Shown here piece by piece: positions 39,741 through 48,834 of a DNA stretch of 50,629 nucleotides. A program made the position numbers and the translations under genes. Each line of letters begins with the position of its first letter. The first letter of the stretch is position 1. The notes below the pieces were generated by a model. The model saw only the letters and a program-made list of their open reading frames with translations, searched no databases and had not been told where the DNA came from. The stretch comes from Nisaea sp. (lineage in GTDB: Bacteria; Pseudomonadota; Alphaproteobacteria; Thalassobaculales; Thalassobaculaceae), in NCBI RefSeq assembly GCF_017640745.1, contig NZ_JAEPQA010000030.1, forward strand, positions 1-50,629, given 5' to 3'.

Positions 39741-39755
39741 GGTGACATAGTCACC
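39741..39755. promoter_or_regulatory. Operator palindrome GGTGAC-ATA-GTCACC
   Basis: Perfect 6-bp inverted repeat with a three-base centre, about 110 bases before the persulfide dioxygenase start. The same half-sites occur at 45049-45063. A TGAC/GTCA core suits a Crp/Fnr regulator, and one is encoded at 44352 in this operon. Confidence 0.7.
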
Positions 39756-39858
39756 GACAGATCCGTGCTCTCGTGGGATCCTGATCCAAATCATGGACCT
39801 CTTCCTCGAGGAGGGGGTTGATATGCGGCATGAGCCCGGAACCGAGGAGGAACCCGAG

Positions 39859-40746
39859 ATGAGCAATTATCCCGTCGACATGAGTGCGCGCCCCGAGGTC
39901 ACGCCCTTCTTCGACCCGGCGACCAACACCATCAGCTACGTGGTCAAGGATCCGAACTCCAAGAGCTGCGCGGTGGTCGACAGCGTGATGGATATCGACT
40001 ACGCGGCCGGCCGCATCACCTACGAGCATGCCGACGAGATCATCGCCTACGTGCAGGAGAAGGGGCTCGAGGTCGAGTGGCTGATCGAGACCCATGTCCA
40101 TGCCGACCATCTCTCCGCCGCGCCCTACATCCAGGAGAAATGCGGCGGCAAGCTCGGCATCGGCCGCAACATCACCATCGTGCAGGAGACCTTCGGCAAG
40201 GTCTTCAACGAGGGCACCGAGTTCCAGCGCGATGGCAGCCAGTTCGACCGCCTGTTCGATGACGGCGATACCTACGAGATCGGCGGGCTGCACTGCTTCG
40301 CCATGCACACGCCCGGACACACGCCCGCCTGCATGACCCACGTGATCGGCGATGCCGCCTTCGTCGGCGACACGCTCTTCATGCCGGACGGCGGCAGCGC
40401 CCGCGCCGATTTCCCGGGCGGCGACGCCGGCACGCTTTATGACTCGATCCAGAAGGTGCTCGCCCTGCCGGCCGAGATGCGGCTCTTCATGTGCCACGAT
40501 TACGGACCGAACGGACGCGACATCCAGTGGGAGACCACGGTCGCGGCGGAGAAGGACGAGAACATCCATGTCGGCGGCGGCAAGTCCCGCGAGGAATTCG
40601 TCGAGATGCGCACCAAGCGCGACGCCCAGCTCGACATGCCGCGCCTCATCCTGCCCTCGCTGCAGGTGAACATGCGCGGCGGCAAGATGCCGCCGAAGGA
40701 CAAGGACGGACGCCAGTTCCTGAAGCTGCCGGTGAACGCGCTCTGA
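39859..40746 (+). CDS. Persulfide dioxygenase-like metallo-beta-lactamase-fold protein (Blh type)
   Basis: 295-residue MBL-fold enzyme. Metal ligands are His79, His81, Asp83 and His84 in THVHADH, His154 in HTPGHTP, Asp171 in FVGDT and His213 in CHDYG. The MPDGGSARADFPGGDA segment matches the Blh/ETHE1-like group that oxidises glutathione persulfide to sulfite. ATG at 39859 is chosen for its GAGGAGG site; the frame is open upstream. It is the first gene of the sulfide operon, 52 bases ahead of the SQR fusion. BigR-type operons pair Blh with sulfur-handling domains, supporting the role. Confidence 0.9.
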   Translation: MSNYPVDMSARPEVTPFFDPATNTISYVVKDPNSKSCAVVDSVMDIDYAAGRITYEHADEIIAYVQEKGLEVEWLIETHVHADHLSAAPYIQEKCGGKLGIGRNITIVQETFGKVFNEGTEFQRDGSQFDRLFDDGDTYEIGGLHCFAMHTPGHTPACMTHVIGDAAFVGDTLFMPDGGSARADFPGGDAGTLYDSIQKVLALPAEMRLFMCHDYGPNGRDIQWETTVAAEKDENIHVGGGKSREEFVEMRTKRDAQLDMPRLILPSLQVNMRGGKMPPKDKDGRQFLKLPVNAL

Positions 40747-40798
40747 CAGAGTCGCCGGTCCGACAGCGGACCTGAAAAAAGACTATCGGAGGAATGCC

Positions 40799-42490
40799 AT
40801 GACCGATGATCGCAAGATCACCGAAACGCTCTCGGTGCGCCCGCAGATCCAGCCGGACGAGGTCGCGGATCTCGCCGCGGCCGGCTACCGGGCGATCATC
40901 TGCAACCGGCCGGACGGCGAGGGCGCCGACCAGCCGAGTTTCGAGGAGATCGAGGCGGCGGCGAAAAAGGCCGGGCTCGAGGCCCTCTATCTGCCGGTGA
41001 CATCCGGCAAGGTCGAGGACACGGATGCAGAGGCCTTCGGCAAGGCGCTCGAACGGCTGCCGAAGCCGGTGCTCGCCTATTGCCGCTCCGGCACCCGGTC
41101 CGCGACGCTCTGGGCGCTCTCCGAAGCCAAAAACCGGCCGCTGCCGGAGATCCTGCAGCGCGCCAAGGGGGCAGGCTACGACATGAGCGGCGTTGTCCGG
41201 CGCATCGCCAACGGCGGAAAGACGCCGACCGACACGGGCGACGCCTCCTACGAGGTCGTCGTTGTCGGCGGCGGGGCGGCCGGCATCGCCGTCGCCTCCA
41301 GCCTGCGGGCGCGTTCGCCCGGGCTCGACATCGCCATCATCGATCCGGCCGACATTCACTATTACCAGCCCGGCTGGACCATGGTCGGCGGCGGCATATT
41401 CTCCGCCGAGACCACGGCCCGCACCATGGGCTCGCTGATCCCCGAGGGCGTGCACTGGATCAAGGCGGCGGTCGCGGCCTTCGAGCCGGAGAACGACGCG
41501 GTGATCCTCGACGGCTGCCGGGTGGTGAAATACAAGCGCCTCGTCGTCTGTCCGGGCCTGAAGCTCGACTGGCACGGCGTCGAGGGCCTGGTCGAGACGC
41601 TCGGCAAGAACGGCGTCACCTCGAACTACCGCTACGACCTCGCGCCCTATACCTGGGAGCTGGTGAGCGGACTGAAATCCGGCCGCGCCGTCTTCACCCA
41701 GCCGCCGATGCCGATCAAATGCGCCGGCGCGCCGCAGAAGGCGATGTACCTCTCCGCCGACCACTGGCTGAAGACCGGCGGCCTGAAGGATATCGAGGTC
41801 GGCTTCTACAATGCGGGCGGCGTGCTCTTCGGGGTGAAGGACTATGTCCCGGCGCTGATGGACTATGTCGAGCGCTACCATGCCGGCCTGCATTTCTTCC
41901 ATCGCCTGACCGCGGTCGACGGCGCGGCGAAAAAGGCCTGGTTCGAGGTTGCGAAGCCGGACGAGGAGAAGCAGCAGGTCGAAGTCGAGTTCGACATGAT
42001 GCATGTCTGTCCGCCGCAATGCGCGCCGGACTTCATCCGCGTCTCGCCGCTCGCGGATGCGGCCGGCTGGGTCGATGTCGACCAGCAGACCCTGCGTCAC
42101 AAGACCTTCCAGAACGTCTGGTCGCTCGGCGACGTGATGAACGCGCCGAATGCCAAGACCGCGGCGGCGGCCCGCATGCAAGCGCCGATCGTGGCGGAGA
42201 ACCTCGTCTCCGACATGAAGAGCAGCGGCAAACAGGCCCGCTACAACGGCTACGGCTCCTGTCCGCTGACCGTGGAGCGCGGCAAGATCGTGCTCGCCGA
42301 GTTCGGCTATGGCGGGGCGCTGCTGCCAAGCTTCCCGGGCTGGCTGATCGACGGCACCAGGCCGAGCTGGCTCGCCTGGCTGCTGAAGGAGCGCTTCCTG
42401 CCGCCGTTCTACTGGAAGGGCATGCTGCGCGGCCGCGAATGGATGGTGAAGCCGGAGACGGTCTCGGCCGAGCCGTCGGCCCAGCTCTGA
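40799..42490 (+). CDS. DUF442-sulfide:quinone oxidoreductase fusion
   Basis: 563 residues. Residues 1-145 are a DUF442 (TIGR01244-type) phosphatase/rhodanese-like domain with a CRSGTRS loop at C95, a possible sulfur carrier. Residues 150-563 form a type II, mitochondrial-like SQR: FAD motif VVVGGGAAGIA (154-164), catalytic cysteines C308 in IKCAGAPQK and C488 in GSCPL (equivalent to human SQOR Cys201 and Cys379, aligned from memory), and SPLADAAGWVDVDQQTL. It would pass electrons from sulfide to quinone and give persulfide for the neighbouring dioxygenase. Extra cysteines C251, C404 and C408 are present. Confidence 0.92.
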   Translation: MTDDRKITETLSVRPQIQPDEVADLAAAGYRAIICNRPDGEGADQPSFEEIEAAAKKAGLEALYLPVTSGKVEDTDAEAFGKALERLPKPVLAYCRSGTRSATLWALSEAKNRPLPEILQRAKGAGYDMSGVVRRIANGGKTPTDTGDASYEVVVVGGGAAGIAVASSLRARSPGLDIAIIDPADIHYYQPGWTMVGGGIFSAETTARTMGSLIPEGVHWIKAAVAAFEPENDAVILDGCRVVKYKRLVVCPGLKLDWHGVEGLVETLGKNGVTSNYRYDLAPYTWELVSGLKSGRAVFTQPPMPIKCAGAPQKAMYLSADHWLKTGGLKDIEVGFYNAGGVLFGVKDYVPALMDYVERYHAGLHFFHRLTAVDGAAKKAWFEVAKPDEEKQQVEVEFDMMHVCPPQCAPDFIRVSPLADAAGWVDVDQQTLRHKTFQNVWSLGDVMNAPNAKTAAAARMQAPIVAENLVSDMKSSGKQARYNGYGSCPLTVERGKIVLAEFGYGGALLPSFPGWLIDGTRPSWLAWLLKERFLPPFYWKGMLRGREWMVKPETVSAEPSAQL

Positions 42491-42519
42491 AGACGTCGAT
42501 CGGCAAGGGGTGATCGAGA

Positions 42520-44292
42520 ATGTCCGAGACTGCGAAGGCGGGCGCTAGGAAGTTCGCCCGCTACCTGCCGATCCTCGACTGGGGGAAGCGCTATGACAGG
42601 AGCGCGCTGACCAGCGACCTGGTGGCGGCGGTGATCGTCACCATCATGCTGATCCCGCAATCGCTCGCCTACGCATTGCTCGCGGGCTTGCCGGCGGAGA
42701 TGGGGCTCTATGCCTCGATCCTGCCGCTGGTCGCCTACGCGTTGTTCGGCACCAGCCGGGCGCTCGCGGTCGGGCCGGTCGCGGTGGTCTCGCTGATGAC
42801 CGCGGCCGCCATCGGCAATCTCGGCATCAGCGATCCCGCGACCTATGCGGCGGCGGCCATCGTGCTGGCTTTGCTTTCCGGCCTGATGCTGCTGGCGATG
42901 GGCCTGCTCCGGCTGGGCTTCCTCGCCAATTTCCTCAGCCACCCGGTGATCGCCGGTTTCATCACCGCCTCCGGCATGATCATCGCGGCGAGCCAGCTGA
43001 AGCACATCCTCGGGATCAAGGCATCCGGCCACAACCTGCTCGATCTGCTGCTCGATCTCGGCCGAAACCTGCCGAACCTTAACCCGACGACCGCCGCCAT
43101 CGGCGTCGGCGCGACGCTCTTCCTCTTCTGGGTTCGCAAGGGCCTGAAGCCGCTGCTCATCCGCCTCGGCCTCCGCCCGCGGATGGCAGACATCCTCGCC
43201 AAGGCGGGGCCGGTCGCCGCCGTTGCGGTGACCACGCTGCTCTGCTGGGGCCTCGGGCTGAATGAACGGGGGGTCGCCATCGTCGGCGCGGTGCCGCAGG
43301 GCCTGCCGCCGCTGACCCTGCCGGCCTTCGATGCCGAGCTCTGGATCGGCCTCGCCGGTTCCGCCCTGCTGATCTCGGTCATCGGCTTCGTCGAATCCGT
43401 CTCGGTCGCCCAGACGCTCGCGGCGAAGAAGCGCCAGCGCATCGTGCCGGACCAGGAACTGATCGGTCTCGGTGCCTCGAACGTCGCCGCGGCGGTGACC
43501 GGCGGCTATCCGGTGACCGGCGGCTTCGCCCGCTCGGTGGTCAATTTCGATGCCGGCGCGGAGACCCCGGCAGCCGGTGCGTTCACCGCCATCGGCATTT
43601 GCCTCGCCGCGCTCGCCCTGACGCCGCTGCTCTTCTTCCTGCCGAAGGCGACGCTCGCCGCGACCATCATCGTCGCCGTGCTCTCGCTGGTGGATTTCTC
43701 CATCCTGAAGCGGACCTGGATCTACTCGAAAGCGGATTTCGCAGCGGTGGCCGTTACCATGGCGCTCACCCTCGGCGTCGGCGTCGAGATCGGCGTCTCG
43801 GCGGGGGTGCTGCTCTCCATCCTGCTTTTCCTCTTCAAGACCTCGCGGCCGCATATCGCCGAAGTCGGACTGGTGCCGGGCACCCAGCATTTCCGCAATA
43901 TCCGCCGCCATGCGGTGCAGACCGTGCCGAGCGTGCTCACGGTCCGGGTCGACGAGAGCCTCTATTTCGCCAATGCGCGTTATCTCGAGGATTATCTCTA
44001 CGACCGGGTCGCTGGCGATCGAGGGCTGAAGCACGTGATCCTGATGTGCTCGGCGGTGAACGAGGTCGACAGCAGCGCGCTCGAGTCCCTCGAGGCGATC
44101 AACCAGCGGCTCGAGAGCATGGGCGTGACGTTCCATCTTTCCGAGGTGAAGGGACCGGTGATGGACCGCCTGCAACGGGCGCATTTTCTCGACGAGTTGA
44201 CCGGCCGGGTCTTCCTCGCGCAATACGACGCGGCGACGGAACTGGATCCCTCCCTCTTGCAGCAGACGCCGCAATTGAGAAAGATCGCCTGA
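42520..44292 (+). CDS. SulP family anion transporter with STAS domain
   Basis: 590-residue inner-membrane carrier. The N-terminal signature IMLIPQSLAYALLAGLPAEMGLYASILP is diagnostic of SulP; the membrane domain covers about 1-420. A cytoplasmic STAS domain (about 440-560) has CSAVNEVDSSALESLEAI. The family moves sulfate, bicarbonate or related anions. Its place between the SQR fusion and the Crp/Fnr gene (gaps 29 and 59 bases) suggests a sulfur oxyanion such as sulfite or sulfate; direction is unknown. Confidence 0.93.
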   Translation: MSETAKAGARKFARYLPILDWGKRYDRSALTSDLVAAVIVTIMLIPQSLAYALLAGLPAEMGLYASILPLVAYALFGTSRALAVGPVAVVSLMTAAAIGNLGISDPATYAAAAIVLALLSGLMLLAMGLLRLGFLANFLSHPVIAGFITASGMIIAASQLKHILGIKASGHNLLDLLLDLGRNLPNLNPTTAAIGVGATLFLFWVRKGLKPLLIRLGLRPRMADILAKAGPVAAVAVTTLLCWGLGLNERGVAIVGAVPQGLPPLTLPAFDAELWIGLAGSALLISVIGFVESVSVAQTLAAKKRQRIVPDQELIGLGASNVAAAVTGGYPVTGGFARSVVNFDAGAETPAAGAFTAIGICLAALALTPLLFFLPKATLAATIIVAVLSLVDFSILKRTWIYSKADFAAVAVTMALTLGVGVEIGVSAGVLLSILLFLFKTSRPHIAEVGLVPGTQHFRNIRRHAVQTVPSVLTVRVDESLYFANARYLEDYLYDRVAGDRGLKHVILMCSAVNEVDSSALESLEAINQRLESMGVTFHLSEVKGPVMDRLQRAHFLDELTGRVFLAQYDAATELDPSLLQQTPQLRKIA

Positions 44293-44351
44293 CCGGACGG
44301 AGATGCGCAGATGCCATCTCCGTTTCGCGGCAAGCGGGCGGAGGGGCGAGC

Positions 44352-45011
44352 GTGGCGGACTGGATCGAACAATTTCCGGGACTTTCCCGCCTCGATGGTG
44401 ACCTGCGCGAGACACTGGTCCGACAGAGCCGCGTGGTGGAGGTACCGCAGGGGACCGTGATCTTCGGCCCGGGTAAGGCGCCGGAGAATCTTCTTCTGCT
44501 GCTCGCAGGCGTGGTCCGGGTCCAGCAGGTGGCGGAGAATGGCCGCGAGATCGTGCTCTACCGGGTGCATGCGCACGAGAGCTGCGTCCTGACCACCGCC
44601 TGCCTGCTTGCCTATGAAGATTACAGCGCCGAGGGTATTGCTGAGACGGACGTCACGGCGGTGGCGATCCCGCGCTCCGTGTTCGACGAGATGATCGCCC
44701 GTTCGGCCGATTTCCGCCGCTTCGTATTTACGGCCTATTCACGCCGCATCACCGACCTCTTCATGGTGATCGAGGAGATCGCCTTCCGCCGCCTCGACTT
44801 GCGTCTCGCCGCCAAGTTGCTGGAACGGAAGGACGCGGCTGGGGACGTGCTGCTGACGCACCATCAGCTTGCAACCGAACTCGGTACGGCGCGAGAGGTG
44901 GTCTCGCGCCAGCTGCAGGAATTCATCCGCCGCGGCTGGGTGACGGCGGGGCGCGGCCGTGTCCATGTAACGGATGCCGAGGCGCTCGGTGAATTTGCCC
45001 ACTCGGCCTGA
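44352..45011 (+). CDS. Crp/Fnr family regulator of the sulfide operon
   Basis: 219-residue regulator. A cyclic-nucleotide-type sensor domain (about 10-120) precedes a long dimer helix and a Crp winged helix-turn-helix (about 168-200, THHQLATELGTAREVVSRQLQEF). The recognition helix keeps the R-E...R pattern of Crp, which fits a TGAC half-site. It lacks the N-terminal Fnr iron-sulfur cysteines but has C78 and C84 in ESCVLTTACLL, a possible thiol switch. GTG start at 44352 has GGAGGGG before it. Last gene of the operon; probably autoregulated through 39741-39755 and also acting at 45049-45063. Confidence 0.88.
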   Translation: MADWIEQFPGLSRLDGDLRETLVRQSRVVEVPQGTVIFGPGKAPENLLLLLAGVVRVQQVAENGREIVLYRVHAHESCVLTTACLLAYEDYSAEGIAETDVTAVAIPRSVFDEMIARSADFRRFVFTAYSRRITDLFMVIEEIAFRRLDLRLAAKLLERKDAAGDVLLTHHQLATELGTAREVVSRQLQEFIRRGWVTAGRGRVHVTDAEALGEFAHSA

Positions 45012-45045
45012 TACCTTTCTGCCGGGCCTGATATCTTTCTGCCGG
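45006..45045. repeat. Two tandem 20-bp copies at the end of the Crp/Fnr gene
   Basis: GCCTGATACCTTTCTGCCGG (45006-45025) is followed directly by the same sequence with one C-to-T change (45026-45045). The first copy includes the regulator's stop codon. It lies just upstream of the second operator. Confidence 0.9.
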
Positions 45046-45048
45046 GAA

Positions 45049-45063
45049 GGTGACTAAGTCACC
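45049..45063 (+). promoter_or_regulatory. Operator palindrome GGTGAC-TAA-GTCACC before the DUF2892 gene
   Basis: Same half-sites as at 39741-39755, with a different three-base centre. A TAGGAT -10-like box lies at 45085-45090. A start of transcription about seven bases later would put the palindrome centre near -41, the position for class II Crp-type activation. Confidence 0.7.
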
Positions 45064-45123
45064 GTTCCGGGTGGGGAATGGGCTTAGGATTTGTGTATCG
45101 CATCCTCAGAGGGAGTCTCTGCC

Positions 45124-45339
45124 ATGATCGCCAATGTCGGAAACCTCGACCGTCTGGCCCGTCTCGTGCTCGGCGTCGCACTGATCCTCGCCCCGTTCCT
45201 GCTTGACCTCGCCATCTTCGCCAATCCGCTGGTGAAATGGGGCGTGCCCATTGTTGGCCTGGTCTTCGCCGGCACCGCGCTGATCCGTTTCTGCCCGCTC
45301 TACGCGATTTTCGGGATCAGGACGCGGTCGGGGGATTGA
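45124..45339 (+). CDS. DUF2892 small membrane protein
   Basis: 71-residue inner-membrane protein. It starts MIANVGNLDRLARLVLGVALI, the DUF2892 pattern NVG..DR..R...G, and has two hydrophobic helices with a CPLYAIFGI end. DUF2892 segments occur next to rhodanese and sulfur-handling genes (for example the YgaP membrane part). GAGGGAG stands upstream of the ATG. It has its own predicted operator and promoter and so appears to belong to the sulfide regulon. Confidence 0.88.
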   Translation: MIANVGNLDRLARLVLGVALILAPFLLDLAIFANPLVKWGVPIVGLVFAGTALIRFCPLYAIFGIRTRSGD

Positions 45340-45537: not shown

Positions 45538-47454
<1,917 letters not shown>

Positions 47455-47456
47455 GT

Positions 47457-47765
47457 TCAATCGAGCAGTTTGCGCCGCTCCTCGAACTCTTTCCCGTCTA
47501 TTTCGCCCTTGGCGAAGCGCTCGCGCAGGATCGCCAGTGCCTTGTCTCCGTCGCCCTTCGGCGCGAAACCGAAGTGGCGCGCGGCGAAGAGCGCGGCGGC
47601 GATCAGGATCACGACGAAAAGCAGCATCATGAACGGACCCATGAACCACCCGCCCATCATCATCGGATGGTAGCCGTAACCGTAGCCGTCGGCCGTGTCC
47701 GCAAGGGCGGGAAACGGCGCCGTGATGACGGCGCTGACAACAAAGAACGGAAAGAGTTTCCTCAT
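47457..47765 (-). CDS. SHOCT domain membrane protein
   Basis: 102 residues: signal peptide or first helix (1-22), a Gly/Tyr/Met-rich stretch, one transmembrane helix (about 40-63) and a C-terminal SHOCT motif (LRERFAKGEIDGKEFEERRKLL). SHOCT domains are short oligomerisation or binding elements; function unknown. It is convergent with ftsH, with only two bases between stop codons. Confidence 0.85.
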   Translation of the reverse strand: MRKLFPFFVVSAVITAPFPALADTADGYGYGYHPMMMGGWFMGPFMMLLFVVILIAAALFAARHFGFAPKGDGDKALAILRERFAKGEIDGKEFEERRKLLD

Positions 47766-47855: not shown

Positions 47856-48834
47856 TCAGGAAGCTCTTGCCCGAGACGATGTTCCTGCAGCGTTTTCCAA
47901 GTACTCCACCCGGTTCCGGCCTCGATTCTTTGCCTTGTACAAGGCCTCGTCGGCGCGCTTTATCTGTTCGGATATCTCGATCCCGGAACCTGAGGCATGG
48001 GAAACGCCGATGCTGACAGTGAGGTGCACCGAGCGTCCGTCGGGAAGAACAAAGGCATGCGTCTCGACACCACGGCGAATTCTTTCCGCCGCCGCGATCG
48101 TGCCGTCGCGATCCACGTTCTTCAGCATGGCGATGAACTCTTCGCCGCCCCAGCGGCAGAGGGTATCGACAGATCTCAACCGCTCATGGACGAGAGAGGA
48201 GAAGGACCGCAACACCTCGTCGCCCGCATCGTGGCCATAGCTATCGTTCAAGCGTTTGAAGTGATCGAGGTCCATGAAGAGAAAGGCGATCCCGGTATTG
48301 TACCGTTCCGCACGTGCACGTTCTTCGGCAGCTCCGTCCAGGAAAGCCCGACGGTTGAGCTGACCGGTCAATGGGTCGAGACGGGCCATGTCGGACAGTT
48401 TCTCAACCATTTCCATCCGCCATGAGATGTCGCGCAGGAACGCGGCGAAGATCGCCTTGCCGCCAGCTTTTGCACGCACGATGCATCGCGCCGATGCGTA
48501 TCTCCTCACCGTCTGCGCGACGCCCGACTATCTGCGTCAACCGCTTGCCCATATAGCGGGCGTCTTCGCCGGAGCTCAGGAAATTATGGACCTGGGCAAC
48601 GTGGTCCTTTCTGAAACGGTCCGGCAGAAGAATGTTCAGGTCTTGTCCAAGGAGCTCTTCGGAGGGATAGCCGAACATCTGTTCCATTGCAGGATTGGCG
48701 AATACGATCTTCTGATCCGCATCGATCGCGATGATCGCGTCAGCAGTATGCCTGACGATATCCCGGTAAAAATCATTGTCCAGTTTGGTGGTGGTTTCGC
48801 CAGCGGCCCCGGTCATAGGCAGTCGATCTATCAA
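47856..48834 (-). pseudogene. PAS-GGDEF diguanylate cyclase gene split by a frameshift
   Basis: Read leftward, an N-terminal PAS domain (from 48834: DFYRDIVRHTADAIIAID, FGYPSEELLGQ) ends in RRADGEEIRIGA, then the frame is lost at about 48484. The next frame continues the same protein (IVRAKAGGKAIFAAFLRDISW, then DPLTGQLNRRAFLDG and the catalytic RWGGEEF). Removing one base restores a single PAS-GGDEF protein of about 325 residues, a cyclic-di-GMP synthase. GGEEF and the DLDHFK metal site look intact. It may be a true mutation, or a sequencing error. The GGDEF part could be translated from a GTG at 48509. Confidence 0.8.

Follow-up and report, generated by a model that had tools for sequence, protein, structure and literature searches.

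Known regulators of sulfide oxidation and the Nisaea locus

In the text available from two reviews, the sulfide and persulfide regulators comprise CstR, SqrR, BigR, PigS, FisR and CsoR, together with SoxRS and OxyR of E. coli (PMC9774590, PMC8148161); a preliminary description of the locus reported here names the BigR/SqrR, CstR and FisR types. According to the same text of one of them, SqrR and BigR control sqr/pdo-type genes and sense sulfur via cysteines, CstR is a persulfide sensor with a cysteine pair controlling sulfide genes, and FisR activates sulfide-oxidising genes and senses reactive sulfur by cysteines (PMC9774590). SqrR and BigR are, however, repressors of the ArsR family, CstR is an all-helical repressor of the CsoR family, and FisR is a sigma54-dependent activator and not a Crp/Fnr protein. 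The locus described here lies on contig NZ_JAEPQA010000030.1 of Nisaea sp. (Alphaproteobacteria), and the whole stretch of 50,629 nucleotides that was analysed is referred to as the window. It comprises genes for a persulfide dioxygenase (PDO), a DUF442 domain fused to a sulfide:quinone reductase (SQR), a SulP permease and a Crp/Fnr regulator, enclosed by two copies of the palindrome GGTGAC-N3-GTCACC (N, any base), the second of which precedes a gene for a YgaP-like transmembrane protein (YgaP-TM).

CRP shares with this system the superfamily and its domains, the GTGA/TCAC half-sites and a site centred near −41 as at class II promoters. The CRP consensus spacing is GTGA-N6-TCAC, whereas the half-sites are 5 bp apart here, and the regulator has Cys78 in its cyclic-nucleotide cassette. 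The operator is one base shorter than any CRP or FNR operator known to us. The closest solved sequence (E 1.4e-24) is 3dv8, a Crp/Fnr protein of Eubacterium rectale with a cysteine pair at the same two positions; it comes from a Firmicute, that is, from another phylum, and is uncharacterised. RedB of Rhodobacter capsulatus (RCC01561) likewise represents a newly named alphaproteobacterial Crp/Fnr subgroup, but recognises a nonpalindromic sequence and governs a global energy-metabolism regulon, as far as the available text of its description goes (PMC9603854). Identity with RedB was thought unlikely on these two grounds, the proteins being set apart by description and not by sequence. The persulfidated Crp of A. 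baumannii was assigned to a different subgroup, being described in the available text as close to E. coli Crp (PMC7315123). A search of titles and abstracts of the open-licence PMC literature found no Crp/Fnr regulator of sqr/pdo genes; regulon databases were outside this search, so the novelty of the system is not certain.

We lean slightly towards the view that the regulator belongs to a distinct Crp/Fnr subgroup and would act as a class II activator of sulfide and persulfide genes through the N5-spaced operator and a persulfide-modified Cys78. Evenly balanced, in our judgement, is the broader proposition of an undescribed and widespread subgroup in Alphaproteobacteria and other classes of Pseudomonadota, in which the cyclic-nucleotide cassette would have turned into a persulfide sensor and an odd-centred operator would serve to activate sulfide-oxidation and sulfur-transport genes. 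Comparison between genomes supports an operator that has this spacing and depends on the regulator, as well as the target genes and the geometry of the promoters; that the regulator binds and activates, and which signal it senses and where, is predicted from these features.

The operator beside the regulator gene in other genomes

Both 15-mers placed by the preliminary description were found at their positions (Table 1). They are the only exact matches to GGTGAC-N3-GTCACC in the whole 4,501,325-base assembly, in which the reversed control pattern has none; a first-order Markov model with the composition of the window predicts, per 4.5 Mb, 0.19 matches to the N3 pattern and 0.008 to the A/T-spaced one. 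One additional GTGAC-N-W-N-GTCAC (W, A or T) is present in this genome, on contig C11 within a 608-aa open frame.

A protein search detected orthologues of the regulator in 4 of the 36 genomes from the order (E 1e-25) and in 24 of the 385 from the class (E 1e-35). Further loci were the best 80 from a search of genome contigs that made use of some search patterns, one of them containing Cys78. The window and 105 other loci, mostly from Alphaproteobacteria, constituted a set of 106, from which L058 was left out (same contig as L029) and which retains duplicates, at least L039/L078, L037/L089 and L041/L114 sharing identical site regions. All spacers from 0 to 12 were tested on this set with no seed motif. 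GTGA-N5-TCAC was present in the first 400 nt beyond the 3' end of the regulator gene in 82 of the 106 loci, in comparison to one locus with N6 and none with N4. In the same 400 nt TGAC-N3-GTCA was found in 63 loci, while its versions with other spacers were limited to 0 to 3 loci; per kb it occurred 1.49 times there and 0.024 times in the far flanks (947 kb). A position weight matrix (PWM) gave a site above 12 bits within these 400 nt in 87/106 loci.

Conservation of the motif at orthologous loci had been set beforehand as a test, and it passed: within 600 nt on either side of the regulator gene the N5 form was present in 21 of 27 loci from the full-length similarity search (N6 and N4 in none) and in 65 of 79 genome-contig loci. 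A profile search of the phylum detected the regulator in 87 of 398 genomes (E 1e-40), and the best 30 loci were taken. Fifteen of them are from outside the class and encode regulators of 42-48 % identity; 12 of these carry a site above 17 bits, and the other three (L185, L191 and L193) have none. The regulator was found beside PDO/SQR operons in Thalassospira, Pseudovibrio, Loktanella and Yoonia, among other genera. To the limit of sequence comparison the pairing of regulator and operator is well supported.

Genome G008 contains two copies of the regulator gene at two contig ends (L030:1-7312 and L029), each followed by an operator and YgaP-TM.

PDO loci with and without the regulator

As a control for dependence on the regulator, PDO loci were compared. 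Of the 385 class genomes 161 had PDO matches at E 1e-75. The regulator-less set was drawn from genomes in which no regulator match was obtained at E 1e-35, at most 7 candidates being scored in each genome, and comprised the 20 PDO loci that scored best; the regulator-bearing set consisted of 20 hand-picked PDO loci from 15 genomes, with the genome of the window, G105, G202, G400 and the second G115 copy excluded. The loci were taken with up to 4 kb per side, and a site was counted at 15 bits or more. No site was found at any of the 20 loci of regulator-less genomes, in comparison to 10/20 of regulator-bearing genomes. The site is missing even from L223 and L231, regulator-less loci whose PDO, SQR and SulP show 66-75 % identity. 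Five of the ten site-less loci in regulator-bearing genomes (L245, L247, L249, L253 and L255) are second PDO copies whose sister copy has a site, and in L244 the site stands directly before a PDO-SQR-SulP operon approximately 21 kb from the regulator gene.

Genes after the sites

The next recognised query gene within 450 nt was recorded for 99 sites of at least 15 bits. It was YgaP-TM in 58 cases, PDO in 15, and SQR, SulP and the regulator alone in one case each, while 23 sites had no query gene. Some of these 23 are followed by Sulf_transp (YeeE/YedE-type) proteins (L076, L077, L116, L132 and L031); the site in L128 is followed by an SQR-like flavoprotein. In L174 a lesser site precedes a 1-Cys peroxiredoxin. 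A gene for a 1-Cys peroxiredoxin, absent from the window, is also present in the sister genome G004 (L027:10942-11658), where it lies between an MFS gene and PDO and has its own CGTGACTTAGTCACC, and PDO retains GGTGATTAAGTCACC. The family check covered 10 proteins after sites, three of which gave no family (two maybe in wrong frames). The genes identified after sites all fall into the sulfur or thiol group (YgaP-TM, PDO, SQR, SulP, YeeE/YedE and peroxiredoxin), and the survey together with the family checks places the sites of regulator loci mostly before sulfur genes, as had been anticipated.

Layout of the locus

The palindromes had been described as enclosing genes for PDO, DUF442-SQR, SulP and a Crp/Fnr regulator, and Pfam and NCBIfam matches back these identities (Table 1). 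The intergenic gaps between the four genes are 52, 29 and 59 nt; because they are so short, the four genes are probably transcribed as one operon, with the regulator probably acting on its own expression through operator 1.

Table 1. Features of the sulfide locus in the window
Feature	Position	Strand	Remarks
Operator 1, GGTGACATAGTCACC, putative, upstream of PDO	39741..39755	.	Exact match; PWM 24.6 bits; centre 111 nt before PDO start
Weak −10-like hexamer GATCCT	39777..39782	+	Offset +29 from operator 1; weak, inferred
PDO, metallo-beta-lactamase-fold persulfide dioxygenase	39859..40746	+	PF00753; NF040641 (Blh), dioxygenase part, below the model's full-length cut-off
DUF442 (sulfur transferase) fused to SQR-like flavoprotein	40799..42490	+	PF04273 and TIGR01244 above cut-off; PF07992; NF049943 (SQR type III) below cut-off
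SulP-STAS anion permease	42520..44292	+	PF00916, PF01740 and TIGR00815 above cut-off
Crp/Fnr regulator, 219 aa, GTG start, Cys78 and Cys84	44352..45011	+	PF00027 and PF13545 above cut-off; 27-row alignment
Operator 2, GGTGACTAAGTCACC, putative, upstream of YgaP-TM	45049..45063	.	Exact match; PWM 24.2 bits; kept between regulator and YgaP-TM elsewhere
−10-like box TAGGAT	45085..45090	+	Starts 29 nt after operator 2 centre
YgaP-TM (DUF2892), putative operator 2 target	45124..45339	+	PF11127 above cut-off

The YgaP-TM gene is followed by a gene for an FtsH-type AAA protease (45538-47454). Beyond it, on the minus strand, lie genes for a small protein, which matches SHOCT below the cut-off, and for a GGDEF protein (47457-47765 and 47856-48509).

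The regulator protein and its predicted signal

The regulator scored 51.7 bits with PF00027 (cut-off 27.5) and 53.1 bits with PF13545 (cut-off 27), which places it in the Crp/Fnr superfamily. It reached no NCBIfam Crp/Fnr subgroup cut-off, the best being PRK13918 with 57.2 bits versus 274, and the CRP equivalog model PRK11753 gave 22.9 bits versus a cut-off of 266. Besides the Crp/Fnr domains the Pfam scan gave a weak sub-cut-off HVO_A0261_N match, and it found no domain of ArsR (BigR/SqrR), CsoR (CstR) or FisR type. An AlphaFold2 model (mean predicted local distance difference test score, pLDDT, 90.3; predicted template modelling score, pTM, 0.63) had Crp/Fnr proteins, including 3dv8, as its best Foldseek matches. 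A paralogue search in six genomes (E 0.001) yielded, beyond the subgroup, three weak paralogues, all from G334, too few for a control.

In an alignment of 130 rows Cys78 is present in all and Cys84 in 121, and R181, E182 and R186 are invariant; the counts on genome-contig loci lean towards Cys78, as one search pattern contains it, and the 27 rows retrieved without a Cys pattern gave 27/27 for Cys78 and 24/27 for Cys84. Most rows have cysteines only at these two positions, and column 44 is Cys in 19 %. FNR holds its iron-sulfur cluster with cysteines near the N-terminus, an arrangement not found here. Cys78 stands immediately before helix 79-87, which by the anatomy of CRP we take to be the phosphate-binding cassette that holds the cAMP phosphate. 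The protein thus has the conserved cysteine expected of a persulfide sensor (Cys78, mostly with Cys84), its reactivity being predicted. Because of its invariance, its position and the target genes, Cys78 most likely senses persulfide: persulfide or sulfane sulfur would modify Cys78, usually together with Cys84, in the former cAMP-phosphate segment.

The same activator and operators could instead answer to peroxide, NO, sulfite, a small ligand or the general thiol redox state. The ligand is not readable from sequence, a peroxiredoxin is among the targets in two genomes, and 3dv8, from another phylum and of uncharacterised role, shares the Cys pair, so that the pair need not mean persulfide sensing. 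The last point, the absence of Cys84 from 9/130 rows and the observations collected in the final section weigh against the reading that we prefer. The targets, however, are sulfide oxidation and sulfur transport genes, and a signal other than persulfide appears unlikely, although it is the alternative that fares best.

Promoter geometry and mode of action

The 75 sites with their surroundings were reduced to 72 by removal of near-identical 120-mers and aligned. TA starting at +29 from the operator centre occurred in 45/72 sites (33/55 YgaP-TM sites and 11/15 PDO sites), whereas other offsets from 10 to 55 gave 0 to 13, with the maximum at +40. If this TA belongs to a −10 box, the operator centre lies near −41. 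A class II activator binds an operator centred near −41 at a fixed distance to the −10 box, and the geometry, with its inferred transcription start, favours this position. The G at +8 (90 %) lacks a counterpart at −8 and coincides with the G of a −35 element, while the A at +9 (86 %) is paired symmetrically with a T at −9 (76 %) and could belong to the operator. The −35 hexamer under the operator matches in at most 4 of 6 positions.

The class II spacing noted earlier for TAGGAT behind operator 2 is therefore a conserved one. Of the promoters predicted behind both palindromes the second has this box, while the corresponding offset of operator 1 holds just the weak GATCCT.

The regulator dimer would bind T-N-G-GTGAC-NWN-GTCAC-C-N-A with half-sites GTGA and TCAC 5 bp apart, a spacing which, compared with 6 bp, would place the dyad axis through the A/T base pair. 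Bound at approximately −41 over a degraded −35, a position that makes class II activation the most likely mode, it would recruit RNA polymerase. Operator 1 would drive PDO, DUF442-SQR, SulP and the regulator gene itself, and operator 2 the gene of the YgaP-like membrane protein.

In the aligned promoters operator and −35 position overlap, and a dimer that covers the −35 and leaves when its cysteine is modified would be a repressor, like SqrR, BigR and CstR in the accessible text of the reviews (PMC9774590, PMC8148161). The poor −35 is what is expected of an activator-dependent promoter, and the centre near −41 at a fixed distance to the −10 box is the class II arrangement. Repression through the same regulator and operators is accordingly a little less probable than a different signal.

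Specificity of the motif and remaining alternatives

Two observations speak against the palindromes as such. When 2 mismatches are allowed the window has 4 matches to the palindrome versus 2.05 expected, and 18 of 100 shuffles reach 4. The exact pattern occurs in 21/61 genomes (that of the window included), so the bare pattern is unspecific genome-wide. Several others, besides the cysteine points and the weak −10 of operator 1, speak against the proposed activator. Over 27 genomes that bear the regulator, GTGACNWNGTCAC matched 74 times and the reversed control 20 times, and the regulon beyond the cluster therefore cannot be delimited. In twelve of the 106 loci the region reaching from 1.2 kb upstream of the regulator gene to 1.5 kb downstream of it has no site above 10 bits; four of them (L076, L086, L128 and L130) carry a site farther away. 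The PDO loci L257-L261, in five genomes, are site-less despite the regulator and are not second copies, L257 and L258 having the full PDO-SQR-SulP set; PDO is therefore not always a target.

The bare motif was rejected as a genome-wide marker. KGTGACWWWGTCACM occurs in 35/385 class genomes, five with the regulator (in four the match is at the regulator locus) and 30 without it. Of the genome scan proposed in the preliminary description, the clustering before sulfur genes thus holds in the context of the regulator, but the bare motif is also present in 30 of 361 regulator-less genomes. Among 33 pattern-bearing loci screened, all except L161 (a regulator locus) and L162 had a stop-free frame of at least 100 aa over the site, which is weak evidence because G+C-rich DNA yields such frames by chance. 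A second regulator sharing the motif, raised by G209, G304 and G374, was also considered and rejected, 8 of 9 places lying inside open frames of at least 90 aa. The exception is L266 of G374, a genome without a regulator match at E 1e-35, where GGTGACTTTGTCACC (L266:3082-3096) stands outside open frames of this size.

It is very improbable that the palindromes are recognised by a different transcription factor and that the Crp/Fnr gene just happens to lie beside them. Binding by the regulator is a prediction, and the odd spacing is unusual for Crp/Fnr proteins; the site, however, accompanies the regulator gene from genome to genome, PDO operons of genomes without the regulator lack it, and the GTGA half-site fits the invariant R181-E182...R186, presumably the recognition-helix residues with the roles they have in CRP. 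Functionless chance palindromes, for which the pattern elsewhere (in relatives and in genomes without the regulator) might speak, were rejected as next to impossible given the uniqueness in the genome, the Markov expectation, the conserved spacing and the regulator-less control.

If the proposed activator is real, sensing of the Crp/Fnr type would be a further route for reactive sulfur beside the ArsR, CsoR, sigma54-type and redox regulators. Its odd half-site spacing poses a clean question on how a CRP-type dimer contacts DNA, and since the operator is predicted to the base, the PDO, SQR, YgaP-TM and YeeE promoters would be directly testable.

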